Assembly (NCBI GenBank): GCA_011389835.1
Contig: JAABTO010000002.1
Coordinates: forward strand, 1 to 36,659
Reading direction: 5' to 3'
From: Desulfotignum sp.
GTDB taxonomy: Bacteria > Desulfobacterota > Desulfobacteria > Desulfobacterales > Desulfobacteraceae
Length of the DNA stretch: 36,659 bases
Position 1 is the stretch's first letter. Each line of letters starts with the position of its first letter. Under the pieces are notes generated by a model. The model ran no database searches. It was not told where the DNA came from and worked only from the letters and a program-made list of their open reading frames with translations. The position numbers and the translations under genes are program-made. Below are positions 6,227-36,659 of the stretch, piece by piece.

Positions 6227-6230
6227 AGTT

Positions 6231-7946: not shown

Positions 7947-7954
7947 GTCATCTC

Positions 7955-13085: not shown

Positions 13086-13111
13086 CAAACTGGAATCAAT
13101 TGCATTACAAC
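13082..13111 (+). promoter_or_regulatory. Candidate sigma-70 promoter of the acyl-CoA ligase/Liv region
   Basis: TTGACA (13082-13087) is followed after 18 bases by TACAAC (13106-13111, four of six matches to the -10 consensus). The -35 box overlaps the stop codon of the upstream kinase gene. The predicted start falls at the 18-bp operator just downstream, the same arrangement as at the other two operator sites in the window. Confidence 0.5.
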
Positions 13112-13124: not shown

Positions 13125-13142
13125 AGACTGAGCGCTCGTTCT
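13125..13142. promoter_or_regulatory. Operator site 1 (TetR-type), before the acyl-CoA ligase gene
   Basis: AGACTGAGCGCTCGTTCT is an 18-bp near-palindrome centred on GAGCGCTC, with symmetric AGA/TCT flanks. It matches site 3 (31803) at 16 of 18 bases and the reverse complement of site 2 (30438) at 15 of 18. It sits just downstream of a TTGACA promoter, so bound repressor would block initiation. Assignment to the TetR protein encoded at 29695-30360 is inferred from the autoregulatory copy. Confidence 0.75.
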
Positions 13143-14731: not shown

Positions 14732-14797
14732 CACCGCCACCCGGTGTGTATGGGAAAATCTGTTTTTTTCCAATAACCCACAGCATTTGGATTCTTT

Positions 14798-15559: not shown

Positions 15560-15564
15560 TCATC

Positions 15565-18383: not shown

Positions 18384-18386
18384 CCT

Positions 18387-19481: not shown

Positions 19482-19553
19482 TAGAGATCGCGGCAGCGGC
19501 GCCAGCTTTGATCATATTTCAGGTCATAACCCCAACCACAGGAGGCAAGTATC

Positions 19554-20780: not shown

Positions 20781-20791
20781 CGGTAAATTTA

Positions 20792-20827
20792 CCCTGCCGG
20801 AAGATCATCGACATTTCCGGCAGGGTC
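20792..20827 (+). promoter_or_regulatory. 12-bp perfect hairpin between the binding-protein and livF genes
   Basis: ACCCTGCCGGAA (20792-20803) and TTCCGGCAGGGT (20816-20827) pair perfectly across a 12-base loop. No T-run follows. Such hairpins after binding-protein genes commonly protect the upstream mRNA or act as partial terminators, giving more binding protein than ATPase. That role is inferred. Confidence 0.65.
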
Positions 20828-20851
20828 AACCCCAAGCCAGAGAAATTATCT

Positions 20852-21658
20852 ATGGAAAACAATCTGCTGGAAGTCAACAATATTGAAGTGGTGTACAACG
20901 ATATCATCCAGGTTCTGCGGGGTGTCAGCCTGTATGTGCCCAAAGGCAGCATCGTGGCCCTGCTGGGCACCAACGGCGCCGGCAAGACCACAACCCTGCG
21001 GGCCATCTCCGGGCTGCTGAAGCCGGAAAACGGGGCGATCCGGGAAGGGCGTATCACGTTTGACGGCACTGACACCACCCATATGATGGGGACCGAAGTC
21101 GTCAAATACGGAGCGGTGATGGTGCCTGAAGGCCGCCGGGTCTTCAAGCACCTGACCGTGAACGAGAACATTATTGTGGGGTCCATCACCCGCAAGGACG
21201 GGGCCGCGGCTATCAAAAAAGACAATGACCTGATGTTCAAACACTTTCCCCGGCTGACCAATGTCACTAACCGGATGGCCGGGTACAGCTCCGGCGGAGA
21301 ACAGCAGATGATCGCTATCGCCCGTGCCCTGATGGCCGCGCCCAAGATGCTGATGCTGGACGAGCCCTCCCTGGGACTGGCGCCGCTGCTGGTCAAAGAG
21401 ATCTTTGAAAACATCCAGCGCATCAACCAGGAACTGAAAACCACCATTCTGGTGGTGGAACAGAATGCCAAAGTGGCCCTGGCGGTATCTGATTATGCCT
21501 ATATCATGGAATCCGGCAAAATCGTTCTGGAAGGCCCGTCCAAAGAGCTGCAGAACAACCCGGATGTCAAGGAATTCTATATGGGCATCACCAAAGGGGG
21601 TGGACGCAAATCCTTCAAAGATGTAAAATCCTATAAACGGCGCAAACGCTGGATGTAG
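20852..21658 (+). CDS. livF: ABC transporter ATP-binding protein, LivF type
   Basis: This 268-residue ATPase has Walker A GTNGAGKT at 39-46, the signature YSSGGEQQMIAIARAL, Walker B MLMLDEPSLGLAP and the switch region LVVEQNAKVALAVSDYAYIME. The LDEPSLGLAP and VEQN forms are typical of LivF. The C-terminus is extended by a basic tail (KSFKDVKSYKRRKRW) that usual LivF proteins lack. Confidence 0.9.
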   Translation: MENNLLEVNNIEVVYNDIIQVLRGVSLYVPKGSIVALLGTNGAGKTTTLRAISGLLKPENGAIREGRITFDGTDTTHMMGTEVVKYGAVMVPEGRRVFKHLTVNENIIVGSITRKDGAAAIKKDNDLMFKHFPRLTNVTNRMAGYSSGGEQQMIAIARALMAAPKMLMLDEPSLGLAPLLVKEIFENIQRINQELKTTILVVEQNAKVALAVSDYAYIMESGKIVLEGPSKELQNNPDVKEFYMGITKGGGRKSFKDVKSYKRRKRWM

Positions 21659-21681
21659 ACCTTAACAGTTAGGAGCTCAAC

Positions 21682-22584
21682 ATGAATATTCTGGTGGGAT
21701 ATGACGGTGGAGAAGAAGGACGCCTGGCGCTGTCCCTGGCCCGGGATACCGCAGTTTTCCACAATGCCTTTGTCCATGTGATCACTTCCATGGAAGGCGG
21801 GAGTTCGGAAAAACAGGCCGATATCCAGACGGCGGGAAAAAACCTGAATTTTGCCGAAAGCCTTCTGGCGCACGCCAATATTGAATGCGACTGCCAGCAG
21901 AGCGTTCGGGGCATGTCCGCCGGAGAAGACCTGGTGAAATTTGCTGAAGAAAACGATATCAACCATATTTTTCTGGGAATCCGAAAAAAATCCCGGGCCC
22001 AGAAAGCCATCCTCGGATCCACGGCCCGGTACGTGATTCTCAAGGCTCCCTGCCCGGTCACAACCGTAAAGTTTGATCTGGACACCATATCCAACCAGGA
22101 CCTGATCAAAGACCGCCGTATCCTGGTGGTGGATGATGAACCCGATATCCTGGAAACCATTGAAGAACTCATGGACATGTGCCTTCTGGATACAGCTGAA
22201 TCCTTTGAGGCTGCCAGAAAAAAACTGGATGCATCCGCGTATGATCTGGCGATCCTGGACATTATGGGCGTCAGAGGCTATGACATCCTGGCGCTGGCCA
22301 GGGAAAAAGACCTGCCGGCCCTGATGCTCACGGCCCATGCCCTGACCCCGGAAAACCTGAAGGAATCCATCAAAAAAGGAGCGGATGCCTATATTCCCAA
22401 AGATGAGCTGGCCAATCTGCCAACCCATGTGGCGGATGTGATCCGGAACCGGATCCAGGGGAACCAGGGCTATGGGGCCTGGTTTTCCAAACTCAAACCG
22501 TTTTTCGACAAATCCTTTGGATCCGGATGGCAGGAAAAAGACAAAAACTTCTGGAATTCGTTCAATGACAAATACGGCAGGTAA
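21682..22584 (+). CDS. UspA domain fused to a receiver domain
   Basis: This 300-residue fusion has a universal stress protein domain (1-130: MNILVGYDGG, IFLGIRKKS, then LGSTARYVILKAPCPV, matching the ATP-binding G-rich loop) joined to a receiver domain (145-260: Asp151/152, phosphoacceptor Asp193 in AILDIMG, Thr218, Lys240). It ends in a 40-residue tail containing WFSKLKPFFDKSFGSGWQEK. Receiver and tail match the stand-alone regulator at 9407-9877. There is no DNA-binding domain. The gene follows livF by 23 bases, so it is probably co-transcribed with the transporter and links ATP/stress sensing to a phosphorelay. Its stop lies 4 bases from the stop of the convergent M24 gene. Confidence 0.88.
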   Translation: MNILVGYDGGEEGRLALSLARDTAVFHNAFVHVITSMEGGSSEKQADIQTAGKNLNFAESLLAHANIECDCQQSVRGMSAGEDLVKFAEENDINHIFLGIRKKSRAQKAILGSTARYVILKAPCPVTTVKFDLDTISNQDLIKDRRILVVDDEPDILETIEELMDMCLLDTAESFEAARKKLDASAYDLAILDIMGVRGYDILALAREKDLPALMLTAHALTPENLKESIKKGADAYIPKDELANLPTHVADVIRNRIQGNQGYGAWFSKLKPFFDKSFGSGWQEKDKNFWNSFNDKYGR

Positions 22585-22588: not shown

Positions 22589-23794
22589 TCATAGCACGCA
22601 TACGGCATCCGGAAACCGGGTCAACCGCTCCAGCCCGGTATCTGTGACAAGCCAGGTATTTTCAATTCCCATAACCCCTTTGCCAGGCAGAATCACTTTG
22701 GGTTCCAGGGCCAGGACCATGCCCGAGGCCAGCACCATGGTCTGACCTTGGGCGATAAAAGGAAATTCGTCCAGTTCAATGCCCAGTCCATGGGCGGTAA
22801 ACCGGATTTTCGGATGGGCCGCGCCCATGAAATAATCCCCATACCCCAGATCCTCGGCCATGGCGGTCATCTGGTCATACAGATCCCCTGTCACAACTCC
22901 CGGAACCGCAGCCCGACTTACGGTTTCCTGAATCGACAGCATGGCTTCATGCGCCTTTTCCAGCTCATCGGGCAGCGCCCCCAGAGAAAAAATCCGTGCA
23001 TGATCTGCCAGGTATCCGTCCAGAGAAAACACATAATCCACCAGCACCGGTTCGTTAGGACGGATCACATCCCGGCCCGGGCCCTGGCCGATACTGGGAT
23101 TGAGTCCGGCTCCGGCCGTGGGAGAGGCAAATCCCCCGGGCACGGCCGCACTAGGCCCGCACATGATATGCCCGTAAAACAGATAGCTGTCCCACATCCG
23201 CATGCGGATCAGCCCCTGATGCCCCAGTTTTCGGGCATGGGCCTCCAGAAGGCCGGCCAGTTCGATTTCCGGCATACCGGGTTGAATCAATACCTTGACC
23301 TGTTCGGCCACCCGGTCGGCCATGAGCGCCGCATTCCGGATACATTGAATTTCAAATTCGGATTTCACCGCCCGCTGGGACCGGATCTCCAGGGACACAT
23401 CCCGGATGGCGCTAGTGGTGAAAATCTCTTTGTACATCAGATACTGGGCCGTCGGCAGCACATCCAGCTCCATGCCCAGGGTTTCGGGCCGGGTCAGGCC
23501 CTCACCAGACAGAATATCCGGAATTTTTTTCGGGCTCAGGACCGGGATCACCGGCAGAGGTGTCTCGGCCCTGGCCCGTTCCACATTCTTGAACACCATG
23601 AATACCGCGTCTCCCTTTTCCGGAACATACAGCCATCCGGTCTGGGTGGTGCCAGTGTAATAAAACAGATCCGCTTTCTGAATCACCAGGGCCCCGTCAA
23701 GGCCCTGGTTTTTCAACCGGTGCTGAAAATCAAGGATCCGGGTGCTCAATTCATGGACTGGAACAATATTACACAATTGTTCATTTATATTCAT
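22589..23794 (-). CDS. M24-family peptidase-like protein (Xaa-Pro aminopeptidase/creatinase fold)
   Basis: I chose ATG 23794 (401 residues), which overlaps the Hbd gene end by 14 bases and has AAGGG upstream; a start at 23839 would run further into Hbd. Residues 1-150 form a creatinase-like N-domain (NQGLDGALVIQKADLFYYTG). The C-terminal pita-bread domain shows the metal-ligand pattern: VDYVFSLDGYLADHAR (two Asp), TAHGLGIELDEFP (His), ALEPKVILPG (Glu) and GIENTWLVT (Glu). All five ligands appear present, so hydrolase activity is plausible. Its place after thiolase and Hbd suggests co-transcription, perhaps for peptide-derived amino acid supply; the exact substrate is unknown. Confidence 0.82.
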   Translation of the reverse strand: MNINEQLCNIVPVHELSTRILDFQHRLKNQGLDGALVIQKADLFYYTGTTQTGWLYVPEKGDAVFMVFKNVERARAETPLPVIPVLSPKKIPDILSGEGLTRPETLGMELDVLPTAQYLMYKEIFTTSAIRDVSLEIRSQRAVKSEFEIQCIRNAALMADRVAEQVKVLIQPGMPEIELAGLLEAHARKLGHQGLIRMRMWDSYLFYGHIMCGPSAAVPGGFASPTAGAGLNPSIGQGPGRDVIRPNEPVLVDYVFSLDGYLADHARIFSLGALPDELEKAHEAMLSIQETVSRAAVPGVVTGDLYDQMTAMAEDLGYGDYFMGAAHPKIRFTAHGLGIELDEFPFIAQGQTMVLASGMVLALEPKVILPGKGVMGIENTWLVTDTGLERLTRFPDAVCVL

Positions 23795-24632
23795 AAAAGC
23801 CCTTACCGGTCTTTCGGCCCAGCCAGCCCACTTCCACATATTTTCTGAGTAGCGGACAGGGCCGGTACTTGGAATCTTTGAATCCGTCGTACAGGGTTTC
23901 CATGATGGCCAGGCAGGTGTCCAGACCGATCAGATCGGCCAGGGCCAGGGGGCCCATGGGGTGGTTCATGCCCAGCCGCATCACCGTGTCGATATCTTCG
24001 GCTGTCCCTACCCCCTGGTACAAACAGAACACCGCTTCATTGATCATGGGCAGCAGAATCCGGTTGGCAATAAACCCGGGATAGTCACTGGCCTGGGCCG
24101 GTGTTTTGCCGAATTTTTCAGACAGTTTCCAGGTGATGTCAAAGGTCTCATCCGAGGTGGCAATGCTCCGGATCACCTCCACCAGCTTCATCAGCGGCAC
24201 CGGGTTCATGAAATGCATGCCGATGACCTTGTCCGGCCGGGAGGTCTGGGCCGCAATCCGGCCGATGGGAATAGACGAGGTGTTGGTGGACAAAATCACA
24301 TGGTCCGGACAGATCCTGTCCAGGTCCTTGAAAATGTTGAATTTCAGGTCTTCGCGCTCCACGGCCGCTTCCACGACAAAATCCACCTTTGCCATGTCGT
24401 TCAGATCCGTGGTAGTGGTGATCCGTTCCAGAATAGCGGACTTGTCCGCTTCGTTGATCTTCTCTTTTTTGACCATCCGGTCCAGGTTTTTGGTGATGTT
24501 GGCCACCCCGCTGTCGCAGAATTCCGGTTTGATATCACTCATGATCACTGACAGGCCCGAGGCGGCTGCTACCTGGGCAATGCCGTTGCCCATCTGGCCG
24601 GCACCAATCACACCAAAGATCTTTATATCCAT
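23781..24632 (-). CDS. hbd: 3-hydroxybutyryl-CoA dehydrogenase
   Basis: This 283-residue NAD(P)-dependent enzyme has an N-terminal Rossmann motif GAGQMG at 10-15, STNTSSIPI, the catalytic-histidine segment GMHFMNPVPLMKLVEVI, and the C-terminal domain with DYPGFIANRILLPMINEA and LGMNHPMGPLALADLIGLD. Length and composition match the short, monofunctional butyrate/acetoacetyl-CoA-type enzyme (Hbd/PaaH). It oxidises 3-hydroxybutyryl-CoA to acetoacetyl-CoA, the step before the thiolase encoded 42 bases upstream in the same operon. Confidence 0.93.
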   Translation of the reverse strand: MDIKIFGVIGAGQMGNGIAQVAAASGLSVIMSDIKPEFCDSGVANITKNLDRMVKKEKINEADKSAILERITTTTDLNDMAKVDFVVEAAVEREDLKFNIFKDLDRICPDHVILSTNTSSIPIGRIAAQTSRPDKVIGMHFMNPVPLMKLVEVIRSIATSDETFDITWKLSEKFGKTPAQASDYPGFIANRILLPMINEAVFCLYQGVGTAEDIDTVMRLGMNHPMGPLALADLIGLDTCLAIMETLYDGFKDSKYRPCPLLRKYVEVGWLGRKTGKGFYEYK

Positions 24633-24674
24633 TTTTTTCTCCTGTTTGATTACGTTTGTTTCACTGATGTTGGA

Positions 24675-25850
24675 TCATCGACGGACCACCAGGGCCACTG
24701 CTTCTCCACCTCCCAGACACAGAGACGCCAGCCCCTGATGTACATCGCGCTTTTCCATTTCATACAGCAGCGTGGTCAGCACCCGGGCACCGGACGCGCC
24801 GATGGGATGCCCTAAAGCCACAGACCCCCCATTGACGTTGACCCTGGCGGAATCCAGTTCCAGTACCTTGTTGATGGCGGTCGACGTTCCGGAAAACGCC
24901 TCATTGATCTCGAACAGATCGATATCGCTGATACGGATCCCTTCTTTTTTCAACACCTTGGGAATCGCATAAATCGGTGCCATCAGCACATATTTCATGT
25001 CAATCCCATAAGAGGCCTGGGCACCGATCTGTGCCAGGATGGGGCATCCCAGTTCCTTTGCCTTTTTCTCACTCATGACCACCACGGCGGATGCGCCGTC
25101 GGAAATAATGGACGCATTGCCGGCCGTGCCCACCCCGTCTTTTTTGAACGCGGGTTTCATCTTTGACAGCAGGTCGAACGACGTTTTCTGGGGGCATTCA
25201 TCCGTGTCAAACACTTTGGGATCTCCCTTGCGCTGCGGTACGCTCACCGGCAGGATCTCTTCTTTGAACCGGCCCGATGCCATGGCCTCGTTTGCCCGGC
25301 GGTAGGACTCTGCCGCATACCGGTCCTGATCTTCTCTGGACACCTCCCAGCGTTCCGAACACAGTTCATTGGACATGCCCATGTGAAAATCATTGACAAT
25401 GTCCCACAGCCCGTCATGAATCATGTGGTCCTCGATACGGCCCGGCCCCATGCGGTGCCCCCACCTGGCCTTGTCCATGTAATACGGGGCCATGCTCATC
25501 GTCTCCATGCCACCGGCCACCACCACATCGGCATCATTGCACTGGATGGCCTGGGCCGCCAGCATCACCGCTTTTAAAGATGATCCGCACACCTTGTTCA
25601 CGGTTATGGATTCCACTTCCCAGGGCAGCCCGGCCTTGACCGCGGCCTGCTTGGCCGGGTTCTGGCCGTAGCCGCAGGGCAGCACCATGCCCATGATACA
25701 TTCATTGACCCGGGATGATTCAATACCGGCCCGGGTGATGGCTTCTTTGATCACCATACCCCCCAGATCGGTGGCGCCTATGGTACTCAGTGTCCCGCCG
25801 AAACTGCCCAGAGGCGTTCGGACGGCACTGACGATGACTGCGTTCTGCAT
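24675..25850 (-). CDS. atoB: Acetyl-CoA C-acetyltransferase (thiolase)
   Basis: This 391-residue thiolase has nucleophile Cys88 in NKVCGSSLKAVMLAAQ, His348 in GGSVALGHPIGASGAR and Cys378 in SLCLGGGEAVAL. The residue after Cys378 is Leu where Ile is usual, a mild change. Size and motifs fit the biosynthetic/acetoacetyl-CoA class (AtoB/PhaA) rather than long-chain FadA. It cleaves acetoacetyl-CoA to two acetyl-CoA, or runs in reverse, and leads an operon with hbd. AAAAGGAG on the minus strand precedes the ATG. Confidence 0.92.
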   Translation of the reverse strand: MQNAVIVSAVRTPLGSFGGTLSTIGATDLGGMVIKEAITRAGIESSRVNECIMGMVLPCGYGQNPAKQAAVKAGLPWEVESITVNKVCGSSLKAVMLAAQAIQCNDADVVVAGGMETMSMAPYYMDKARWGHRMGPGRIEDHMIHDGLWDIVNDFHMGMSNELCSERWEVSREDQDRYAAESYRRANEAMASGRFKEEILPVSVPQRKGDPKVFDTDECPQKTSFDLLSKMKPAFKKDGVGTAGNASIISDGASAVVVMSEKKAKELGCPILAQIGAQASYGIDMKYVLMAPIYAIPKVLKKEGIRISDIDLFEINEAFSGTSTAINKVLELDSARVNVNGGSVALGHPIGASGARVLTTLLYEMEKRDVHQGLASLCLGGGEAVALVVRR

Positions 25851-26017
25851 GGATCGTTCTCCTTTTGAATTTCTGTCAATTATTCGCTATATTGCAGCTG
25901 GAATGTATCAGCTGTCTGTATCCTTTGCAAGTGTTTTCCAACCCGGACGAGCCCTGATCCGGCGTTTTTGGGCAAAGCCACCGTGCCAAGGGACGGCTGG
26001 TCAACAGACCCGTGCCT

Positions 26018-26193
26018 GAGGGGTGTGTGGGTTTCACTCCTCTGCCGTCTTTGACAAGGCGTAGAGCATGCTGCGCTAAACGGCAAAAACTGCGGGCAGG
26101 TATGTCCTCAAACAGTTTGCCGTTCTTCACGCTTCGCATGCCCAACGCCTTGTAACAAACACGTCAGAATGGGATTCAACCCACACACCCCTC
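26018..26193. repeat. Nested 176-base inverted repeat (structured element)
   Basis: Three nested stems share one axis. GAGGGGTGTGTGGGTT (26018-26033) pairs perfectly with 26178-26193. ACAAGGCGT (26054-26062) pairs with 26145-26153, with GCATGC at 26066-26071 facing 26136-26141 across a 3x3 internal loop. AACGGCAAA (26079-26087) pairs with TTTGCCGTT (26116-26124). GGGACGG at 25990 and CCGTCCC at 26222 may extend the fold outward. This could be a structured RNA, a dispersed non-autonomous repeat, or a transcription terminator after icmF; sequence alone does not decide. Confidence 0.75.
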
Positions 26194-26266
26194 CGGACAC
26201 TGGAAGATGCTGGCGGCGATACCGTCCCCAAGGCCTTCACTCAAACCGATTTTCTGCACAGCCGAG

Positions 26267-26349
26267 CCCCTGGCGGGGGTGCCTTGCCGACGGACTGTCG
26301 GAGCCACCCCGAGGATTCCAGGCCGGCGGCAAGTCACCCCCGCCAGGGG
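26267..26349. repeat. 23-bp-arm GC-rich inverted repeat
   Basis: The arms at 26267-26289 and 26327-26349 are complementary at 22 of 23 positions (core CCCCTGGCGGGGGTG with CACCCCCGCCAGGGG) around a 37-base loop. The left end lies 77 bases beyond the icmF stop codon, so on the minus strand the hairpin would be transcribed just after icmF. No T-run follows. It may act as a terminator or mRNA-end stabiliser, or be a dispersed palindrome. Confidence 0.75.
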
Positions 26350-26425
26350 CGGCACTCTGCCGACATTTGAGATCAAGACTGCCGCTGCAGCTGATTATAG
26401 CCTCGTGGCCGGTTCAAATCGACGG

Positions 26426-29400
26426 CTACATGTTCCGGCGGTACTTGCCTCCCACTTCGTACAGGGCCCCTGTGATGGTACCCAGGGAACAGACCTTGAC
26501 GGTCTCCATGAGTTCCGCAAACATGTTGCCGCCGTTCAAAGCCGTCTCCTGCAGCCGCTTCAGGGCCGCTTCCTGTTCATCCTGATGGGTGGCTTTGAAC
26601 GCATCCAGCCGTTCCAGCTGAGCATTTTTCTGTTTTTCGGTCGACCGGGACAACTCCAGATGATTGGCCATGTCCGCATAGTTTGCATCCGGGTCCTCAA
26701 AGGTGTTGATACCGACCAGCGGCAGTTTGCCCGAATGCTTGAGATGCTCGTAATACATGGACTCTTCCTGGATCTTGCCCCGCTGGTATCCGGTTTCCAT
26801 GGCGCCAAGCACCCCACCCCGCTCGGTAATGCGCTCGAACTCCACCAGCACGGCCTCTTCCACCAAATCTGTGAGTTCATCCAGGATAAACGACCCCTGG
26901 AGCGGGTTCTCGTTTTTGGCCAGGCCCCATTCTCTGTTGATGATCAGCTGAATGGCCAGGGCACGACGCACCGATTCCGCGGACGGGGTGGTGATGGCCT
27001 CGTCAAACGCGTTGGTATGAAGCGAATTGCAGTTGTCGTAAATGGCGCACAGGGCCTGCAGGGTGGTGCGGATATCGTTGAACTGGATATCCTGGGCGTG
27101 CAGGGACCGGCCCGAAGTCTGGATATGGTATTTGAGTTTCTGGGATTTGTCGTTTCCTTTGTATTTGTAGCGCATGGCAACCGCCCAGATGCGGCGGGCC
27201 ACCCGGCCGATCACCGTGTATTCCGGATCCATGCCGTTGGAAAAGAAAAACGACAAAGACGGGGCGAACTCATCGATATCCATGCCCCTGGACAGGTAGT
27301 ACTCCACATAGGTGAACCCGTTGGCCAGGGTAAGGGCCAGCTGGGTGATGGGATTGGCCCCGGCTTCAGCAATGTGGTATCCGGAAATAGACACGGAATA
27401 GAAATTCTTCACCTGGTGATCGATAAAATACTGCTGGATGTCCCCCATCATTTTCAGGGCGAACTCAATGGAAAAAATGCAGGTATTCTGGCCCTGGTCC
27501 TCTTTGAGAATGTCGGCCTGGACCGTGCCCCGCACCGACGAAAGCGCGAACGCCCTGAGTTCGGCAGCCTCTGTTTCATCGGGTTTGCGGCCGTTTTCTT
27601 TCTCGAATTTATCCATCTGCTGATGGATGGCCGTGTTCAGAAACATGGCCAGCATCATGGGGGCCGGGCCGTTGATGGTCATGGACACCGACGTGTTGGG
27701 GGCGCACAGGTCAAATCCGTCATACAGCACCTTGACATCTTCGAGCGTGCAGATGCTCACCCCGGAGGTGCCGATCTTGCCGTAGATATCGGGCCGCCGG
27801 TCCGGGTCAAACCCGTACAGGGTTACCGAATCAAACGCCGTAGAAAGCCGTTTGGCCGGATACGAGGAAGACAGCAGCTTGAACCGGCGGTTGGTGTCCG
27901 CAGGTCCGCCCTCTCCGGCAAACATCCGGGTGGGGTCCTCATCCGCCCGTTTCAACGGAAACACCCCGGCGGTATAGGGAAACTGGCCGGCAAAATTCTC
28001 CTTGCGCATCCACTGGTACTGATCCCCGGGATCGGTAAACCGGGGCCGAGCGATCCTGGGAATTCTGGAATGTGACAAAGATTTTGTGTACAGGGGCACC
28101 CTGAACTCTTTATCCCGGACATGGTAGATGAATTCATCTTTTTCATAGGCCTGAACGCTGGTCTCATACTGATCGATCAGATCATCGGTGTCCGGTTCCA
28201 CCTGCTGCCGGGCCCCTGTCAGGGCCTGCTTCAGTCCGGCAAGGGCCTGATCCATATCTTCCGGTTGAATCTCCAGGTCTTCCAGCGCCGAGGACAGGTG
28301 CCAGCACCGGCGGACCGCATCGGCCTGGTCCTGTGTGGCTTTGTGGTACTGGCGCACCGTGTCCGCAATCTCCGCCAGATACCGGGTGCGCTCGCCCGGA
28401 ATGATAATGGTTTTGGACGAGGACTCTTTGACATCGGCCCGGGGAATGGATGAAGCAAAGGCGGTCCCTTTAGCCTGGTTGATCTGATCCAGCAGGGTAT
28501 GGTAAAAAGCGGTGAGACCGTCATCATTGAACTTGGAGGCGATGGTGCCGTAAACCGACATCTCCTTGGGGTCCTTGTCCCAGGCCTTTCGGTTGCGCTG
28601 CACCTGTTTTCTCACGTCCCGGATGGCATCTTCGGATCCTTTTTTCTCGTATTTGTTCACCACCACGATATCCGCATAATCCAGCATGTCGATCTTTTCC
28701 AGCTGGGACGGGGCCCCGTACTCCGCAGTCATTACATACACGGACACATCCACCAGATCCACCACCCGGGAATCGCCCTGGCCGATGCCGGCCGTTTCCA
28801 CCAGGATCATGTCAAATCCAGCTGCCTTGACCACTTCCACGGCGTAAGGAAGGGATTCCGGCAGTTCGGTCTGGGACCGCCGGGTGGCCAGCGACCGCAT
28901 GTACACCCGGTCACTGTCAATGGCATTCATGCGGATCCGGTCCCCCAGAAGGGCACCGCCGGTCTTGCGGCGGGAAGGATCACAGGAGATAATGCCGATG
29001 GTCACCTCGGGCAAATCACGCAGAATCCGGATGATCAGTTCGTCGGTGAGAGAGGATTTACCGGCCCCGCCGGTACCGGTAAGGCCGATGACCGGAATGT
29101 TTTTCGACCCGGCTGCCGGGGTCAGACGGGCCATGATTTGTGTCAGCCGGTCCGGATCATTTGCACCGGCCTCCTGGACCGCGGAGATGACCCGGGCGAT
29201 GGTGAGCTTGTTGTCCACGTTCAGCCGGTCGAATTCCAGATGATCGAAATCCACACTCGGCCCGTCCATTTTGCGCATCATGTCGTTGATCATCCCCTGG
29301 AGACCCATCTTGGCCCCGTCTTCGGGCGAATAGATCCGGGTGATGCCGTAAGCGTGCAGTTCCGCCATTTCCGCCGGGATGATCACCCCGCCGCCGCCGC

Positions 29401-29698
29401 CGAAGATCTTGACATGGGAGGCCCCGTGCTCATCGAGCAGGTCTTTCATGTACTTGAAATATTCCATGTGCCCGCCCTGGTAACTGGAAACGGCAATGCC
29501 CTGGGCATCTTCCTCGATGGCGGCATCCACCACCTCCTTGACCGACCGGTTGTGGCCAATATGGATGACTTCGGCCCCCGTGTCCTGGAGAATCCGTCTC
29601 ATGATATTGATGGCGGCATCATGGCCGTCGAACAAAGAGGTGGCGGTAACAATTTTAATGGCGTGTTTCGGGGTATACGGCTGAGTTTCCTGAGTCAT
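26426..29698 (-). CDS. icmF: Fused isobutyryl-CoA mutase (B12 domain, GTPase chaperone, mutase)
   Basis: This 1090-residue three-part protein has a cobalamin-binding domain (about 10-145, with SLFDGHDAAI and GGGGVIIPAE), a MeaB-like GTPase (about 200-420, P-loop GTGGAGKS at 208-215, LVETAGIGQGD, VVNKYEKKG) and a mutase TIM-barrel domain (about 540-1090: IYGKIGTSGVSICTLEDVK, SISGYHIAEAGANP, FAPSLSFFFSNGMDPEYTV, HIQTSGRSLHAQD). This order is diagnostic of IcmF and unlike methylmalonyl-CoA mutase. It interconverts isobutyryl-CoA and butyryl-CoA using adenosylcobalamin; some IcmFs also act on isovaleryl/pivalyl-CoA. The start ATG overlaps the TetR stop (ATGA), indicating translational coupling. 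Confidence 0.93.
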   Translation of the reverse strand: MTQETQPYTPKHAIKIVTATSLFDGHDAAINIMRRILQDTGAEVIHIGHNRSVKEVVDAAIEEDAQGIAVSSYQGGHMEYFKYMKDLLDEHGASHVKIFGGGGGVIIPAEMAELHAYGITRIYSPEDGAKMGLQGMINDMMRKMDGPSVDFDHLEFDRLNVDNKLTIARVISAVQEAGANDPDRLTQIMARLTPAAGSKNIPVIGLTGTGGAGKSSLTDELIIRILRDLPEVTIGIISCDPSRRKTGGALLGDRIRMNAIDSDRVYMRSLATRRSQTELPESLPYAVEVVKAAGFDMILVETAGIGQGDSRVVDLVDVSVYVMTAEYGAPSQLEKIDMLDYADIVVVNKYEKKGSEDAIRDVRKQVQRNRKAWDKDPKEMSVYGTIASKFNDDGLTAFYHTLLDQINQAKGTAFASSIPRADVKESSSKTIIIPGERTRYLAEIADTVRQYHKATQDQADAVRRCWHLSSALEDLEIQPEDMDQALAGLKQALTGARQQVEPDTDDLIDQYETSVQAYEKDEFIYHVRDKEFRVPLYTKSLSHSRIPRIARPRFTDPGDQYQWMRKENFAGQFPYTAGVFPLKRADEDPTRMFAGEGGPADTNRRFKLLSSSYPAKRLSTAFDSVTLYGFDPDRRPDIYGKIGTSGVSICTLEDVKVLYDGFDLCAPNTSVSMTINGPAPMMLAMFLNTAIHQQMDKFEKENGRKPDETEAAELRAFALSSVRGTVQADILKEDQGQNTCIFSIEFALKMMGDIQQYFIDHQVKNFYSVSISGYHIAEAGANPITQLALTLANGFTYVEYYLSRGMDIDEFAPSLSFFFSNGMDPEYTVIGRVARRIWAVAMRYKYKGNDKSQKLKYHIQTSGRSLHAQDIQFNDIRTTLQALCAIYDNCNSLHTNAFDEAITTPSAESVRRALAIQLIINREWGLAKNENPLQGSFILDELTDLVEEAVLVEFERITERGGVLGAMETGYQRGKIQEESMYYEHLKHSGKLPLVGINTFEDPDANYADMANHLELSRSTEKQKNAQLERLDAFKATHQDEQEAALKRLQETALNGGNMFAELMETVKVCSLGTITGALYEVGGKYRRNM

Positions 29699-30360
29699 GA
29701 CGGCTCCTTTAAAAAGATGAGACCGAGAATAAAATCGGTCTGGATGGCGATATACTGGTCAATGGTGAACTGCTTTTGCAGATGCCAGCGACGGAATGCC
29801 CACATCTGTCCCAATACCGAGATGTTGTGTCCCACAAGATTGACGATGTCCACACCCAGAACCGGAAAGCTGTTTTTACCGGACATCCGGTTCAAGGTGG
29901 TAATAAAAATATCCGTGATATTCAATTCATTGGTCAACACCCGTTCCTGCCATTTTTTGGGCAGAAACTGGGTCACCTGGTACATGAGCAGAATATGATC
30001 GGCCATGTTGTCACACACTTTGAAATAGTGACGGATCACCCGGGCCAGGATTTCCCTGTCCCCGGTGGTGCCTGTCAGGGCCTCTTCCACCGCCTTCTGC
30101 ACCTCTTCATGAATGGTTTTGCACACCAGGTACAACAGATCTTCTTTAGAGCTGACATATTCATACAGGGAGCCGATGGAAAAACCTGCGGCCCCGGCAA
30201 TCATGCGGGTGGTGGTTTTATGGTACCCGTGATCGATAAACAGGGTGACAGTGGCATCGATGATATGCCGCCGCCGTTCTTTGACCAGCTCCGGATTCTT
30301 GATCTGGGTGGGCACCTCGGGATCGGTTATCCGCTGTTTCTTTTTCCTGTCCTTTACCAC
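29695..30360 (-). CDS. TetR/AcrR-family regulator coupled to icmF
   Basis: I chose GTG 30360 (221 residues), preceded by AAGGAG; a longer frame from 30498 would translate the operator itself and is unlikely. The N-terminal helix-turn-helix domain reads RRRHIIDATVTLFIDHGYHKTTTRMIAGAAGFSIGSLYEYVSSKEDLLYLV, a clear TetR fold, written here only to mark the motif in pieces: helix 1 around RRRHIIDATVTLF, recognition helix around SIGSLYEYVSSK. The C-terminal ligand domain (about 75-221) is unclassified. The stop overlaps icmF by 4 bases. Operator site 2 in its promoter implies autoregulation, with an acyl-CoA such as isobutyryl- or isovaleryl-CoA the likely ligand by context. Confidence 0.88.
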   Translation of the reverse strand: MVKDRKKKQRITDPEVPTQIKNPELVKERRRHIIDATVTLFIDHGYHKTTTRMIAGAAGFSIGSLYEYVSSKEDLLYLVCKTIHEEVQKAVEEALTGTTGDREILARVIRHYFKVCDNMADHILLMYQVTQFLPKKWQERVLTNELNITDIFITTLNRMSGKNSFPVLGVDIVNLVGHNISVLGQMWAFRRWHLQKQFTIDQYIAIQTDFILGLIFLKEPS

Positions 30361-30437: not shown

Positions 30438-30455
30438 TGAACGAGCGCTCAATCA
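30438..30455. promoter_or_regulatory. Operator site 2 (TetR-type), autoregulatory, before tetR-icmF
   Basis: TGAACGAGCGCTCAATCA has GAGCGCTC at its centre and symmetric TGA/TCA flanks. Its reverse complement TGATTGAGCGCTCGTTCA aligns with sites 1 and 3 over all 18 positions. It lies just downstream of the predicted tetR promoter on the minus strand. Confidence 0.78.
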
Positions 30456-30461: not shown

Positions 30462-30489
30462 TTTTTACATGAATCCATCCGGTTGTCAA
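30462..30489 (-). promoter_or_regulatory. Candidate sigma-70 promoter of tetR-icmF
   Basis: On the minus strand TTGACA (30489-30484) is followed after 16 bases by TAAAAA (30467-30462). The predicted start lies within operator site 2 at 30438-30455, giving simple steric repression. The 5' leader to GTG 30360 is about 90 bases. Confidence 0.6.
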
Positions 30490-31761: not shown

Positions 31762-31791
31762 TTGACAATTCATTTTCTATAAATGTAGTAT
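31762..31791 (+). promoter_or_regulatory. Candidate sigma-70 promoter of the 31915 cluster
   Basis: TTGACA (31762-31767) is followed after 18 bases by TAGTAT (31786-31791). Operator site 3 begins 12 bases after the -10 box, at the predicted transcription start. The surrounding 31700-31800 is A/T-rich. Confidence 0.6.
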
Positions 31792-31802: not shown

Positions 31803-31820
31803 AGACTGAGCGCTCGATCA
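31803..31820. promoter_or_regulatory. Operator site 3 (TetR-type), before the acyl-CoA dehydrogenase cluster
   Basis: AGACTGAGCGCTCGATCA matches site 1 (13125) at 16 of 18 positions, including the whole AGACTGAGCGCTCG half. The core GAGCGCTC is identical at all three sites. It lies about 95 bases before the GTG of the acyl-CoA dehydrogenase gene. Confidence 0.78.
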
Positions 31821-31914: not shown

Positions 31915-33063
31915 GTGGATTTTGACCTTACCAAAGAGCAGGAGATGATTCGTAAGGAAGTCAGAAAGTTTGCCCAGAAAGAGATCGCCCCGATCGCGGG
32001 GGAACTGGATGAAAACGAAGAGTTCTCCGAAGATCTGACCCGGAAAATGGGGGAAATCGGTCTTTTCGGCATGTTTGTTTCCGAAAGCTATGAGGGACAG
32101 GCAATGGATTATATCTCGTATATCATTGCCGTGGAAGAAATTGCGCGCATCGACGGGTCCCAGGCCGCCACCATTGCGGCGGGCAACTCCCTGGGCATCG
32201 GGCCCATCTATTATTTCGGCACGGAAGCACAAAAGAAAAAATATCTGCCCAAACTGTGCGCCGGAGAAGGTCTCTGGGGATTCGGACTCACCGAACCCAC
32301 GGCCGGGTCCGATGCCGGGGGCAGCAAAACCACGGCCGTGCTGGAAGGGGACGAATGGGTGATCAACGGCTCCAAAATTTTCATCACCAACGCGGCCTGC
32401 GACATGACCATGGGCGTCACAGTCCAGGCGGTGACCGGGACAAGGGACAACGGCAAGCCGGAATATTCCTGCATCCTGGTGGAAAAAGGCACCCCGGGAT
32501 TCAAGGCCGTGCCCATGCACAAAAAAATGATGTGGCGGTCCTCCAACACGGCGGAACTGTATTTTGACGATGTCCGGGTGCCTAAAGAAAACATCCTGGG
32601 CAAGAAAGGAGACGGATTCCACCAGATGCTGTCCACCCTGGACGGAGGCCGGTTGTCCATCGGTGCCATGGGACTGGGCGGGGCCCAGGGGGCCTATGAC
32701 CTGGCGCTGAAATACGCAAAGGAAAGAGAGCAGTTCGGCCAGCCCATCTCCAAATTTCAGGCTGTGGCATTCAAGCTGGCGGACTGCGCCATGGAGATCG
32801 AATGTGCCAGAAACCTGCTGTACAAGGCCTGCTGGCTGAAATCCCATCACCGCCCGTTTGAAAAGGAAGCCGCCATGGGCAAGCTGTACTGTTCCGAGGT
32901 CATGAGCCGGGTGGTGGACCATGCCGTGCAGATCCACGGGGGATACGGCCTGATGAAAGAATACAATGTGGAACGGTTTTACCGGGATCAGAAACTGCTG
33001 GAAATCGGTGAAGGCACCTCCGAGGTTCAGCGCCTTGTCATCTCGAGATACATCGGCTGTTAA
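31915..33063 (+). CDS. Acyl-CoA dehydrogenase, first gene of the carboxylase cluster
   Basis: This 382-residue flavoenzyme starts at GTG 31915 behind AAGGAGG. It has the three-domain layout: VDFDLTKEQEMIRKEVRKFA, then GFGLTEPTAGSDAGG and KIFITNAACDMT, then QIHGGYGLMKEYNVERFYRD. Glu366 in IGEGTSEVQR is the catalytic base at the short/medium-chain position. Isovaleryl-CoA dehydrogenases place the base elsewhere in the fold, so by this criterion it is not a typical isovaleryl enzyme even though the next genes suggest leucine-type catabolism. It is the first gene behind operator site 3, and its product would feed the adjacent hydratase and carboxylase. Confidence 0.87.
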   Translation: MDFDLTKEQEMIRKEVRKFAQKEIAPIAGELDENEEFSEDLTRKMGEIGLFGMFVSESYEGQAMDYISYIIAVEEIARIDGSQAATIAAGNSLGIGPIYYFGTEAQKKKYLPKLCAGEGLWGFGLTEPTAGSDAGGSKTTAVLEGDEWVINGSKIFITNAACDMTMGVTVQAVTGTRDNGKPEYSCILVEKGTPGFKAVPMHKKMMWRSSNTAELYFDDVRVPKENILGKKGDGFHQMLSTLDGGRLSIGAMGLGGAQGAYDLALKYAKEREQFGQPISKFQAVAFKLADCAMEIECARNLLYKACWLKSHHRPFEKEAAMGKLYCSEVMSRVVDHAVQIHGGYGLMKEYNVERFYRDQKLLEIGEGTSEVQRLVISRYIGC

Positions 33064-33083
33064 GCCGGATTGGAGCGTCTGTC

Positions 33084-33872
33084 ATGACTGAAACACAAGA
33101 ACTGCTCATCCGGGAGGAAAAAAACCAGGCCGCCATTCTCACGTTGAACCGGCCGGCCGTGATGAACTGCCTGAACTTTGACCTGTTGTATGCCCTCAGA
33201 GATGAAATCGAGGCGTTGCAGTTTTCCGATACGATCCGGTGCGTCATCATCACCGGAACCGGGGAAAAGGCGTTCTGCGCCGGGGCTGACCTCAAGGAAC
33301 GCGCCACCCTCACCCAGGACCAGGTCAAACAGTTCATTGTCACCATCCGAAACCTGCTGACCGCCATCCAGAACCTGAAAATGCCGGTGATCTCGGCGGT
33401 GAACGGCATCGCATTGGGCGGGGGCACGGAAATCGCCCTGGCATCGGACATCCGCATTGCATCCGGCACCGCGGTCATGGGCCTCACCGAAACCCGGCTG
33501 GCCATCATTCCCGGCGGCGGCGGCACCCAGCGACTGCCCCGGATCATCGGCGTGGCCAAGGCCAAGGAACTGATTTTCACCGGCCGCCGGGTGGATGCCA
33601 AAGAAGCCCTGGACATCGGCCTGGTGAACGCCACAGCCCCGCCGGAAAAACTCAAAGACACCTGCCTGGACATGGCCGCCATGATCGCCGAGACCGGCCC
33701 CATTGCCGTGGAAATGGCCAAATACGCCATTGACAAAGGTATCGAGACCGACCTGGCCACGGGCCTGGCCATCGAGTCCAATGCCTACCGGGTCACCATC
33801 CCCACCGAGGACCGCATCGAAGGTTTGACCGCGTTCCGGGAAAAACGCAAACCCGTATACAAAGGAAGATAA
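33084..33872 (+). CDS. Enoyl-CoA hydratase/isomerase, methylglutaconyl-CoA hydratase-like
   Basis: This 262-residue crotonase-fold enzyme has CAGADLKERA, the oxyanion-hole ALGGG (110-114), and two catalytic glutamates, Glu116 and Glu136, 20 residues apart as in active hydratases. The segment LTETRLAIIPGGGGTQRLPR, with KAKELIFTGRRVDAKEALDIGLV after it, closely resembles human AUH/bacterial LiuC, which hydrates 3-methylglutaconyl-CoA to HMG-CoA. It lies 20 bases after the dehydrogenase and 4 bases before the carboxyltransferase, the neighbour expected for that pathway. Crotonyl-CoA hydration in general beta-oxidation is also possible, since no other hydratase gene is in the window. Confidence 0.85.
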   Translation: MTETQELLIREEKNQAAILTLNRPAVMNCLNFDLLYALRDEIEALQFSDTIRCVIITGTGEKAFCAGADLKERATLTQDQVKQFIVTIRNLLTAIQNLKMPVISAVNGIALGGGTEIALASDIRIASGTAVMGLTETRLAIIPGGGGTQRLPRIIGVAKAKELIFTGRRVDAKEALDIGLVNATAPPEKLKDTCLDMAAMIAETGPIAVEMAKYAIDKGIETDLATGLAIESNAYRVTIPTEDRIEGLTAFREKRKPVYKGR

Positions 33873-33876
33873 CCCC

Positions 33877-35466
33877 ATGACCGATAACAAAACCTTCTGG
33901 GAAGCCCAGGAACAAGAACTGGAAACCATGCGGGAAAAAGCGGCCTGGCCCGGCGGACAAAAGGCCGTGGACAACCTGGCCAAACGCGGCAAACGCCCGG
34001 TACGGGAACTGATCACCGACCTCATCGATGCCGATACCCCGTTTTTCGAACTGTCCATGCTGGCCGGGTTCGGCATGGGATACCCCGGCGTGGAGGATGT
34101 GCCGTGCGCCGGCATTGTCACGGGCATCGGAAAAATCCACGGCAACTGGACCATGATCATGGCCAGTGACTCCCGGGTCAAGGCGGGCACCTATTTTCCC
34201 ATCACGTTGAAAAAACACATGCGGGCCCAGGCCATTGCGGAAAAATGCGGACTCAACTGCGTGTACATCGCCGACTCCGGCGGGGTGTTTCTGCCCATGC
34301 AGGCGGATGTGTTTCCCGATGACCAGCATTTCGGATCGATTTTCTACAACATGGCACGCATGTCCGCCATGGGCCTGCGCCAGGTCACGTTGAGCACCGG
34401 CGGCAACACCGCTGGCGGGGCCTATATCGTGTTCATGGCCTGTGAATCCATCATGATCGACAAGCAATCCTTTTCCTTTTTAGGGGGCCCGCCTCTGGTG
34501 AAAATGGCCACCGGCGAAGAGATCTCCGCCGAAGATCTGGGGGGTGCCAGAGTCCACACCCAGATTTCAGGCGGGGCCGACCATATGTGTGCCGACCAGG
34601 CCCAAGCCATTGCCAAAGTCCGGGAACTGATGTCTCTGACCCGGCCCCAGGAGCTGCACCTGCACCGCTATGACGTCAAAGAGCCGAAAACCGACGCGCC
34701 CGCGGTGTATGATGTGCTGCCATCCTCCCCCCACCAGGGCATCAAGGGACATGCCTTTCTCCAGGCCATTGCCGACGATTCTGAATTCATCGAAGTGAAA
34801 AAGAATTTCGCTCCGGGAAGGGGCACCAACATCCTTACCGGCAAGCTCCGCATCAAGGGACTGCCGGTCGGGGTGATCTGCTCCAACGGGGCCGGGATCA
34901 TCTTTCACGAAGCTGCCAAAAAAGTGGCGGAATGGGTGGTGAGATGTTCCTACGAGAAAATTCCGCTGCTGTTCATCCAGAGCGCGCCGGGGTATATGGT
35001 GGGATCGGAATCCGAACACGCGGGCATCGGCAAGTACGGGGCCGACATGGTCCGGGCCGTGTCCTGTGCCCAGGTGCCCCGGATTCAGCTGGTGATCGGT
35101 CCGGACAACGGGGCGGCCAACTACGGGATGTGCGGCCGGGCCTACCGGCCCAATTTCCTGTTTTCCACCATGCGGGCCCGCACGGCAGTCATGAGCGGCA
35201 AAAGTGCGGGCGGGGTTCTGTTGAGCATCGAGCAGGCCAAACGCAAAGCCACGGGCAGTCCCATGACACCCGACGAAATCACCGCGTTTCAGCAGAAAAT
35301 GATCGACAAATACGACGGCGAGGCCCATCCGTTTTTCTGTGCGGCCCGCCTGTTCAACGACCGGGTCCTCAAGTTCCACGAGATCCGGGACTGGCTGGCC
35401 ATGGCTTTGGAGGTCAGCCTGATCAAACCGGTTCCCGACCCCTCTTTCGGCAATTTCCGGTTTTAG
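33877..35466 (+). CDS. Acyl-CoA carboxylase carboxyltransferase (beta) subunit, methylcrotonyl-CoA carboxylase-like
   Basis: This 529-residue biotin-dependent carboxyltransferase has the duplicated crotonase-like fold. N-half: GTYFPITLKKHMRAQAIAEK, GGNTAGGAYIVFMA, FLGGPPLVKMATGEEISAEDLGG. C-half: GRGTNILTGKLRIKGLPVG, IPLLFIQSAPGYMVG, GADMVRAVSCAQVPRIQLVIG, NYGMCGRAYRPNFLF. Length and the GPPLVKMATGEE/NYGMCGRAY style match the MccB/LiuB/AtuC group (methylcrotonyl- or geranyl-CoA carboxylase) more than propionyl-CoA carboxylase. The matching biotin carboxylase and biotin carrier are not in the window and may lie downstream. Propionyl- or glutaconyl-type activity cannot be excluded. Confidence 0.85.
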   Translation: MTDNKTFWEAQEQELETMREKAAWPGGQKAVDNLAKRGKRPVRELITDLIDADTPFFELSMLAGFGMGYPGVEDVPCAGIVTGIGKIHGNWTMIMASDSRVKAGTYFPITLKKHMRAQAIAEKCGLNCVYIADSGGVFLPMQADVFPDDQHFGSIFYNMARMSAMGLRQVTLSTGGNTAGGAYIVFMACESIMIDKQSFSFLGGPPLVKMATGEEISAEDLGGARVHTQISGGADHMCADQAQAIAKVRELMSLTRPQELHLHRYDVKEPKTDAPAVYDVLPSSPHQGIKGHAFLQAIADDSEFIEVKKNFAPGRGTNILTGKLRIKGLPVGVICSNGAGIIFHEAAKKVAEWVVRCSYEKIPLLFIQSAPGYMVGSESEHAGIGKYGADMVRAVSCAQVPRIQLVIGPDNGAANYGMCGRAYRPNFLFSTMRARTAVMSGKSAGGVLLSIEQAKRKATGSPMTPDEITAFQQKMIDKYDGEAHPFFCAARLFNDRVLKFHEIRDWLAMALEVSLIKPVPDPSFGNFRF

Positions 35467-35559
35467 GCAAAGGAACCATGAAAGAGTTGAATGATACCGT
35501 TTTTACGGTTGCCTATCAGGGCCGCCATATTATAAATTCCTTATATGAGGAGACGACCC

Positions 35560-36659
35560 ATGACAGAATATGATTACTGGAAAATTTTCCCGAGAATGCC
35601 AAGAAAAGTCACCATCGGCGACATCACGGTCAGAGACGGATTTCAGCACCTGGAAAAATTCATTTCCACCCCGGCCAAGATCACCTATCTGGAGGAACTG
35701 ATTTTTGCTGGCTGCCGCAACATCGAGGTGACCAACCTGGGCAATCCCCGGAACATGCCTCAGTTTGCCGATGCCGAGGAACTGCTGGCCCATCTTCGAT
35801 CCGACAATTTTGTGTCCCGGGCAGCCAAAAAAGGCATTGACATGAAGGATGTGACCCTGACCGCCATCACCATCCGGGAGCCGTCCGTGGACCGGGCCAT
35901 CGAGCTCAAAAAACGCGGGGTCGGCCCGGACCGGGTTTTAATGATGGTGTCCACGGAAGAGCAGCACCATTTCGCCAATTCCGGCACCACCCTGCCCAAC
36001 TACTGGAAGGAAGCGGAACGGTGCATCCAAAAATGCACGGATGCGGGCATCAAAATGTGCGGCACCGTGTCCACCATCTGGGGGTCTCCCATCGGCGGGG
36101 CCACCAAACTGGAAGATGCCGTCAAGTTCACCAGACACTGGCTGGATATCGGGGCTTCGGACATCGAGCATGCCGATCACGACGGATCAGCGTCGGCCCC
36201 GGAGGTGTACCGGTATTTTTCCATGATCTTAGACGAGATCCCGGACACCTCGTTACACATCGCCCATTTTCACGAAACCAAACGCGTGGCATCGGCGTCC
36301 ACCCTGGCCGCGCTTCAGGCCGGCATCTGCCATTTCGAGTGCACCCTGGGGGGCCTGGGGGGGCAGCCGGCCAACTTTCTGGATGACCGGCCCATCAAGG
36401 GCACGGGCGATTATTATTATGACGACCCCCGGTATGTGGGGCTGGTCTGCCTGGAAGATACCCTTGTACAAATTGATGAAATGGGTATAGAACATGGATA
36501 TGATGTGGACCGGATCCTGTGGCTGGGCAGACAGCTGGAAAAAACCGTGGGCTTCCGCCTGCGCAGCGAAGCCATCATCAACGGCCGGACCCTGACCGAA
36601 GGCCATATGGAATACGCCCGGCCGGGTCTGGCAAAACTCAAGGAAAAACTGGGAGAGGC
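35560..36659 (+). CDS. HMG-CoA-lyase-like DRE-TIM protein, 3' end outside window
   Basis: The frame begins at ATG 35560 behind GAGGAGA (35547-35553) and stays open to the window end (366 codons). TVRDGFQ at 24-30 supplies the Arg-Asp pair and His236/His238 (HFHET) the metal ligands of the HMG-CoA lyase/pyruvate-carboxyltransferase family. The active-site loop reads GGLGGQP (264-270): HMG-CoA lyases have Cys where this has Gln269. The enzyme follows the AUH-like hydratase and carboxyltransferase, the expected place for a lyase, but the lost cysteine means a different mechanism or substrate is possible. A short frame around 35478 lies in the 93-base gap before it and has no support as a gene. 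Confidence 0.8.
   Translation, partial: MTEYDYWKIFPRMPRKVTIGDITVRDGFQHLEKFISTPAKITYLEELIFAGCRNIEVTNLGNPRNMPQFADAEELLAHLRSDNFVSRAAKKGIDMKDVTLTAITIREPSVDRAIELKKRGVGPDRVLMMVSTEEQHHFANSGTTLPNYWKEAERCIQKCTDAGIKMCGTVSTIWGSPIGGATKLEDAVKFTRHWLDIGASDIEHADHDGSASAPEVYRYFSMILDEIPDTSLHIAHFHETKRVASASTLAALQAGICHFECTLGGLGGQPANFLDDRPIKGTGDYYYDDPRYVGLVCLEDTLVQIDEMGIEHGYDVDRILWLGRQLEKTVGFRLRSEAIINGRTLTEGHMEYARPGLAKLKEKLGE

Follow-up and report, generated by a model that had tools for sequence, protein, structure and literature searches.

The stretch of DNA analysed here (hereafter the window) comprises 36,659 nucleotides of the forward strand of contig JAABTO010000002.1 from Desulfotignum sp. (GCA_011389835.1, an assembly of 405 contigs, 88% complete and 3.17 Mb in size) and carries, on its minus strand, a gene for a FadR-like TetR-family regulator (tetR, 29695-30360; 221 amino acids with a GTG start at 30360 and a TGA stop at 29695, assigned from its open reading frame (ORF), Pfam and a structural model) together with icmF, the gene for a fused isobutyryl-coenzyme A (CoA) mutase (26426-29698, ATG at 29698; 1090 amino acids, assigned from its ORF, Pfam and NCBIfam). 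An earlier reading made from the letters alone (the sequence-only reading) had claimed that the stop of tetR and the start of icmF share four bases, as the ATGA at 29695-29698 on the minus strand confirms, and that the promoter of the regulator carries its own operator. A pattern scan found an 18-bp palindrome there (TGATTGAGCGCTCGTTCA on the coding strand; 30438-30455, minus strand), lying just downstream of a predicted promoter (TTGACA-16-TAAAAA; 30462-30489, minus strand) at the expected +1. Pattern scanning also located two such operators on the plus strand, the second at 13125-13142 (AGACTGAGCGCTCGTTCT, after TTGACA-18-TACAAC at 13082-13111) and the third at 31803-31820 (AGACTGAGCGCTCGATCA, after TTGACA-18-TAGTAT at 31762-31791). 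The second precedes a transporter/ligase operon (operon 2; 13235-22584, plus strand) assigned by Pfam to two AMP-forming CoA ligases, a branched-chain-type ATP-binding cassette (ABC) importer with two ATPases, two permeases and a binding protein, and a Usp/receiver protein; the third precedes a Liu-type isovalerate/leucine operon (operon 3; 31915-36657, plus strand, assigned by Pfam and gene order) which runs off the contig. As it also holds genes for a VorB-type 2-oxoacid oxidoreductase subunit and a branched-chain aminotransferase, the window resembles an island for the degradation of branched-chain amino acids.

The predicted IcmF has, in Pfam, a B12-binding domain (residues 14-115), a MeaB-type GTPase domain (168-410) and an MM_CoA_mutase domain (565-1083), and it scored 1879.3 bits against NCBIfam NF045497 (“fused isobutyryl-CoA mutase/GTPase IcmF”), above the equivalog cut-off of 1500. 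It shares its domain order with the IcmF of Cupriavidus metallidurans (PDB 4xc6), to which it aligned over residues 10-1090 with 1477 bits, and the alignment suggested no function-relevant difference between the two. The substrate-site Phe and Gln are conserved (DPTRMFAGEG and EDQGQNTC are identical to those of 4xc6), residues which we take to mark the isobutyryl-CoA type, methylmalonyl-CoA mutase having Tyr/Arg, and so another type of mutase was rejected for icmF on both its family score and its substrate-site residues. A third mutase large subunit in the source genome (G000:C277:9165-10709, locus L002) is a 553-amino acid open frame, the matched stretch of which scored 419.8 bits, below the methylmalonyl-CoA mutase cut-off of 876. 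The guess that the DNA came from a sulfate reducer was supported by the presence of dsrA in the genome (593.8 bits in a profile search against a cut-off of 392.85). That IcmF would be notable in such an organism was not, as it exceeded its cut-off in 144 of the 193 genomes searched (source genome included) and is ordinary among these relatives; the nearest named icmF loci include those of Desulfobacula metagenome-assembled genomes (MAGs; 80% identity) and Desulfocicer vacuolatum (74%). An isobutyryl-CoA mutase group from sulfate reducers, of mutases with separate subunits, is mentioned in the available part of an earlier report (PMC5017805).

TetR contains TetR_N (PF00440, 53.2 bits), and its AlphaFold model (mean predicted local distance difference test score 88.8) matches TetR structures, with a helix-turn-helix (HTH) and an all-helical ligand domain. 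Among the NCBIfam matches listed it fell below every cut-off, the nearest being FasR (NF053731, 54.5 versus 330 bits), and it scored 46.1 bits against Bacillus-type FadR (NF053878, cut-off 200). The 429 structures matched at E ≤0.001 in a fold search include the acyl-CoA binders FasR with C20-CoA, FadR with acyl-CoA and AibR with isovaleryl-CoA, as well as BkaR, which weakly supports an acyl-CoA as the class of ligand and does not speak to its identity. AibR of Myxococcus xanthus (5k7z, with isovaleryl-CoA and operator DNA; rank 34), which acts in isovaleryl-CoA metabolism and serves an isovaleryl-CoA-making route, shares the fold at 16-17% identity in the fold alignment; a short branched acyl-CoA is a plausible ligand of the window TetR as well. 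BkaR (Rv2506) of Mycobacterium tuberculosis, which represses genes for branched-chain acids, was matched at rank 9 and is 16% identical over the fold alignment. TetR has its fold and the acyl-CoA binding class in common with FadR of Thermus and FadR/YsiA of Bacillus, but their targets are long-chain where those predicted for TetR are short branched-chain. In Proteobacteria the regulons of LiuR (a MerR protein) and LiuQ (a TetR protein) cover branched-chain amino acid degradation, including the Liu-type isovaleryl-CoA operon. No description of the regulator from the window was found in the literature searched, by titles and abstract openings among the matches listed.

The three operators each begin 6-13 nucleotides past a -10-like element with a perfect TTGACA ahead of it (6 nucleotides for that of tetR), and a position downstream of the -10 is the usual place for a repressor. 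The near-palindrome gave four matches in the window at up to three mismatches, compared with a mean of 1.09 in shuffled sequences, of which 1 in 100 reached four; scored against this first pattern the site at 13125 has two mismatches and that at 31803 has one, and one match with three mismatches lies inside a gene. A tightened pattern, GANYGAGCGCTCRNTC, gave three perfect sites in the whole 3.17-Mb genome, all of them in the window, with none at one mismatch and nine at two, and the reversed pattern gave a single match at up to two mismatches and none at up to one. As the tightened pattern was derived from the three window sites themselves, other genomes are the stronger test of the operator. 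Within the genus set (13 genomes, source genome included) the three sites recur letter for letter in 12, against none for the reversed control, and they are kept also where the three loci sit on different contigs; G002, which is 78% complete, has one site, and G009 has a fourth with one mismatch. Across the 11 genus members with an adjacent tetR-icmF pair, all 18 columns of the tetR operator are invariant, compared with 42 of the 182 other promoter columns. The claim that the regulator carries an operator in its own promoter is thus upheld in respect of the palindrome, and this conservation supports autoregulation of tetR-icmF through it.

In a wider set of 88 genomes, one or more sites were found in 75 when a single mismatch was allowed (10 have a match to the reversed control) and 69 have a tetR ortholog (at least 193 bits, the next match being at 92 bits). 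Site and ortholog occur together in 66 genomes, ortholog without site in 3, site without ortholog in 9 and neither in 10 (Fisher p = 4e-6, relatedness ignored). In a survey of tetR homologs (at least 120 bits, restricted to those with at least 300 nucleotides upstream, and with many loci fetched via icmF), a site lay within 600 nucleotides upstream at up to one mismatch in 72 of 76 distinct non-Bacillota homologs, 68 of them perfect, and the reversed control matched none; the four non-Bacillota homologs with no upstream site were at loci L059, L062, L201 and L242. A site of the window form was upstream of 2 of the 24 Bacillota homologs, both from Alicyclobacillus. In other members of the family sites were found again at tetR-icmF, at the isovalerate operon and at the ligase/transporter operon (the latter often with one mismatch). 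A further site, in other genera, stands between a branched-chain aminotransferase gene and a pair encoding a cupin-HTH regulator and an acyl-CoA dehydrogenase, several of these being beside genes for a VorB-type 2-oxoacid:ferredoxin oxidoreductase (VOR); it was not found in the four genus genomes drawn. The target genes in other genera, this aminotransferase/acyl-CoA dehydrogenase promoter beside VOR genes among them, belong to the same pathways as those in the window, in support of one regulator of branched-chain acid catabolism.

As to the genes behind the two further operators, the site at 13125 most likely serves the ligase operon. Divergent control from it was considered and rejected, as the minus-strand ORFs at 11988-13031 and 10632-11786 match no family; the plus-strand ORF at 10719-13085, upstream of the second operator, matches PAS histidine kinases and therefore these opposite-strand ORFs are unlikely to be genes (the labels u10632 and u11988 in our neighbourhood maps rest on them and are equally doubtful). 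Operon 3 encodes, in order, an acyl-CoA dehydrogenase, an enoyl-CoA hydratase, a carboxyltransferase and a protein like 3-hydroxy-3-methylglutaryl-CoA lyase, and its single members are below the cut-offs of their NCBIfam names. A cluster at 3.21 Mb in G095, which we take to be Desulfococcus multivorans DSM 2059, has 71-86% identity to operon 3 and is taken as its ortholog. In the available part of a proteogenomic study of this organism (PMC5109826), EchA2, Mcc, HmgL and a CoA ligase are placed in a cluster at 3.20 Mb and reported to be made on 3-methylbutanoate alone, and this seems to be the same cluster, matched by gene content and position and not by locus tag. Gene order, Pfam assignments and the corresponding D. 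multivorans cluster together suggest that operon 3 encodes the Liu-type isovaleryl-CoA pathway.

Taken together these results suggest that TetR is probably an autoregulating, FadR-like repressor of icmF and of branched-chain acid catabolism, released by an acyl-CoA. It would bind TGANYGAGCGCTCRNTCA-type sites over the transcription start of three promoters, namely its own (tetR-icmF), that of the CoA-ligase/ABC-importer operon and that of the isovalerate-degradation operon. Breakdown of branched-chain amino or fatty acids would give a short branched acyl-CoA, most likely isovaleryl- or isobutyryl-CoA, that binds TetR; ligand-bound TetR would leave the DNA, and uptake/activation, the isovaleryl-CoA route and IcmF would rise together. 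IcmF would turn isobutyryl-CoA into butyryl-CoA, which could then undergo beta-oxidation by crotonase, 3-hydroxybutyryl-CoA dehydrogenase (HBD) and thiolase. The sequence-only reading had the unit keyed to isobutyryl/butyryl-CoA flux, and this is too narrow, as the operator also stands before the isovalerate and transporter/ligase operons and the ligand could therefore equally be isovaleryl-CoA or another branched acyl-CoA. This gives a sharp, testable regulon for the oxidation of branched-chain amino and fatty acids in a relative of Desulfobacula, with one predicted regulator, one operator and three promoters.

A number of observations, in this and the following two paragraphs, weigh against such a regulator. 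In the promoters of tetR and of the ligase operon just 4 of the 6 positions of the -10 half match, and a stricter promoter scan of the window does not list the tetR promoter. The fold matches discriminate weakly, DarR with cyclic di-AMP being among the 429 as well. In G108 tetR-icmF is present, but a search allowing one mismatch found no site, and in G098 and G102 regulator and site are found at methylmalonyl-CoA genes instead. The isovalerate operon of D. multivorans has no operator at up to three mismatches, and a different TetR gene adjoins it; regulon content therefore varies, and we have rejected this operon as support for the operator, using it for the enzyme assignment only. A perfect site in D. 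multivorans, at 3,193,161, falls where the available part of the proteogenomic study places a myristate cluster with the TetR-type FadR2 (PMC5109826).

The best placed of the alternatives, which we nevertheless consider unlikely, is that IcmF runs mainly from butyryl-CoA to isobutyryl-CoA, so making branched acyl-CoA, or that it acts on isovaleryl- or pivalyl-CoA. The IcmF reaction is reversible and a side activity on isovaleryl/pivalyl-CoA is known. D. multivorans could be taken to favour this too; in the available part of the study of that organism no isobutyrate-specific proteins were seen, its isobutyrate genes were unassignable and a methylmalonate-semialdehyde route was proposed (PMC5109826). 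However, both in Desulfobacterota and in the five Bacilli loci drawn, icmF is found together with genes for thiolase, HBD and acyl-CoA dehydrogenases, which fits burning of the product, and the operators place icmF among catabolic operons. D. multivorans itself has the order operator-tetR-icmF-thiolase-HBD-cupinHTH-acyl-CoA dehydrogenase (L241, 8569-16847), and either its IcmF is produced constitutively, or the protein escaped detection, or isobutyrate takes a different route; the L241 operon is a candidate for the isobutyrate genes left unassigned in the part of the proteogenomic study available (PMC5109826).

Somewhat less probable still is that the main binder of the operator is another regulator, either the cupin-HTH protein or a paralogous FadR-type TetR, with tetR being just one of the targets. 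A cupin-HTH ortholog does co-occur with the sites, and G027, a one-contig genome, carries a perfect site while lacking a tetR ortholog. This site lies at position 5001 of L202, at cupin-HTH/aminotransferase genes, and is either a leftover site or the mark of a second binder. In G013, G014 and G028 similar sites are present at ligase/acyl-CoA dehydrogenase genes of another type, a different TetR gene lying no more than about 5 kb away, and so the operator motif is not exclusive to this TetR. Nevertheless, the five genomes that have tetR and no clear cupin-HTH ortholog (G016, G035, G098, G102 and G103) keep perfect sites, which favours TetR as the binder, the most constant site is the one at tetR itself (72/76), and the tetR-less genomes G018, G091, G092, G100 and G106 have sites with one mismatch and none that is perfect. 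G116, which is 65% complete and has tetR and a fragment of cupin-HTH, has no site.

That tetR and icmF instead form a stand-alone, translationally coupled unit keyed to isobutyryl/butyryl-CoA, as the sequence-only reading had it, is improbable, although the ATGA overlap and the unit's own operator would fit and the genes are neighbours in 50 of the 63 genomes comparable (they are apart in 13). Six tetR genomes were outside this comparison: G035 and G047 have the pair, G019, G032 and G102 are without a strong icmF match, and G103 has a weaker icmF match for which no place is listed. Among named icmF loci (n = 72 with at least 900 nucleotides upstream, grouped by record title) a tetR homolog was present at 24 of the 29 from Bacillota, which likewise speaks for a unit, and at 16 of the 23 from Desulfobacterota-like and other MAGs; there were none at the 16 loci with proteobacterial or Geobacter names and none at the 4 of Bacteroidota type, and the pair was therefore rejected as a universal accompaniment of icmF. 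By this recount the two genes adjoin each other less generally than the survey of tetR homologs had led us to expect. Set against a stand-alone unit are the same operator before two further operons, the restriction of the overlap, within the genus, to the source genome, and the genomes G019, G041 and G045, which keep operator-tetR-thiolase-HBD with no icmF between.

The overlap itself can be traced by alignment. In the ten remaining genus members that have the pair, the genes are separated by 11 nucleotides (n = 5: G004, G009, G010, G011 and G012), 14 nucleotides (G001) or 107-119 nucleotides (n = 4: G003, G005, G006 and G007), which led us to reject the overlap as a conserved coupling device. 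In the five close relatives with the 11-nucleotide gap the tetR stop (TAA, or TGA in G010) stands just before AAGGAG, and a single base change from TAA to TTA in the source genome makes tetR five codons longer, ending inside the icmF start. A homopolymer indel as the cause was rejected, as the alignment has a substitution with the length unchanged; a base error in the assembly behind the TTA codon is conceivable, the assembly being fragmentary. The icmF ribosome-binding site, AAAGGAG at 29704-29710 (minus strand, from the alignment), lies within the extended 3' end of tetR, and AAGGAG is kept before icmF in all 11 aligned genus genomes. As the overlap is unique in the genus and icmF keeps its own Shine-Dalgarno sequence, tight translational coupling does not appear to be a conserved property of the pair. 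With starts chosen by script, a four-nucleotide overlap was counted in 7 of 68 adjacent pairs outside Bacillota and in 4 of 24 within it. So, although the autoregulated tetR-icmF unit of the sequence-only reading is supported by the present comparisons, its highlights (the overlap with its coupling, the rarity of IcmF and the narrow ligand) are not; it is the operator, not the overlap, that is the signal, and even an eye-catching junction may come down to a single substitution while the conserved signal lies some 740 bases upstream, before the regulator gene. A terminator-like hairpin at 29720-29741, inside the 3' end of tetR and ahead of icmF, is intact in the window and could reduce read-through into icmF in the source genome; a terminator between the genes was rejected, as the stem is broken in both relatives folded.

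That TetR might be an activator requiring acyl-CoA, like mycobacterial FasR, which is its top fold match and its top (far sub-threshold) NCBIfam match, is very improbable given that all three operators lie downstream of a -10-like element, a position from which a bound protein would be expected to obstruct polymerase and not to help it.

With autoregulated repression by TetR retained as the preferred reading, its distribution permits a wider and more tentative proposal, which we hold to be possible though not favoured: that tetR-operator-icmF is an old acyl-CoA-sensing module common to Desulfobacterota and Bacillota, running anaerobic branched-chain acid oxidation in sulfate reducers, with the regulator re-aimed between B12-mutase pathways. 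Next after tetR and a site come methylmalonyl-CoA mutase and succinyl-CoA ligase in G098, and succinyl-CoA ligase in G102, two more sites in G102 preceding methylmalonyl-CoA mutase-MeaB and an mmdA-type carboxyltransferase (847.6 versus 998.8 bits); these methylmalonyl-CoA-type loci are L240, L243, L244 and L245. If the proposal holds, the regulator would have been re-aimed from isobutyryl-CoA (IcmF, in most genomes) to methylmalonyl-CoA mutase, MeaB, carboxyltransferase and succinyl-CoA ligase in these two genomes, the ligand specificity of TetR should differ between IcmF-type genomes and G098/G102, and IcmF would account for the isobutyrate step left unassigned in sulfate reducers such as D. 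multivorans. On the Bacillota side, the five loci of Bacilli that were mapped in full (L084, L090, L094, L098 and L112) open with the box TGACTGAATGCTCATTCA, followed in order by an ORF of 707-784 amino acids (FeS-oxidoreductase-like where scanned, in L090), thiolase, HBD, two acyl-CoA dehydrogenases, tetR and icmF. The half-sites of Bacillus FadR are TGANTGA...TCANTCA, and the TGACTGAATGCTCATTCA box carried by Bacillota icmF loci is of this type; a box of the form TGANYGANNNNTCRNTCA was present anywhere in 18 of the 23 Bacillota loci scanned.

Among the remaining features of the window, the region 3050-9019 has VorB-type VOR genes on the plus strand and genes for an acyl-CoA dehydrogenase, a cupin-HTH regulator and a branched-chain aminotransferase on the minus strand, with the VorB-type subunit and the aminotransferase above cut-off. 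There is no operator at 3050-9019 in the window, and several related genera have one at the same place. No known RNA elements were detected in the window at gathering thresholds. Downstream of icmF, on the minus strand at 23781-25850, lie the genes for thiolase (24675-25850) and HBD (23781-24632), which have a promoter-like stretch of their own in all four genomes compared and may have a separate regulator. In G009 and G012 this stretch (25851-25950 in the window, minus strand) contains a palindrome, ATTGCAGCTGCAAT, which is one base off in the window and also one base off, elsewhere, in G007. The gap between icmF and thiolase is 575 nucleotides in the window versus 148-154 in G009/G012 and 308 in G007. 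The extra DNA (25990-26400) has nested inverted repeats at 26015-26196 and 26253-26363, and stretches of it recur at other places in the genome (15 matches listed, including the query and its own two inverted halves), suggesting that it is an insertion resembling a miniature inverted-repeat transposable element.

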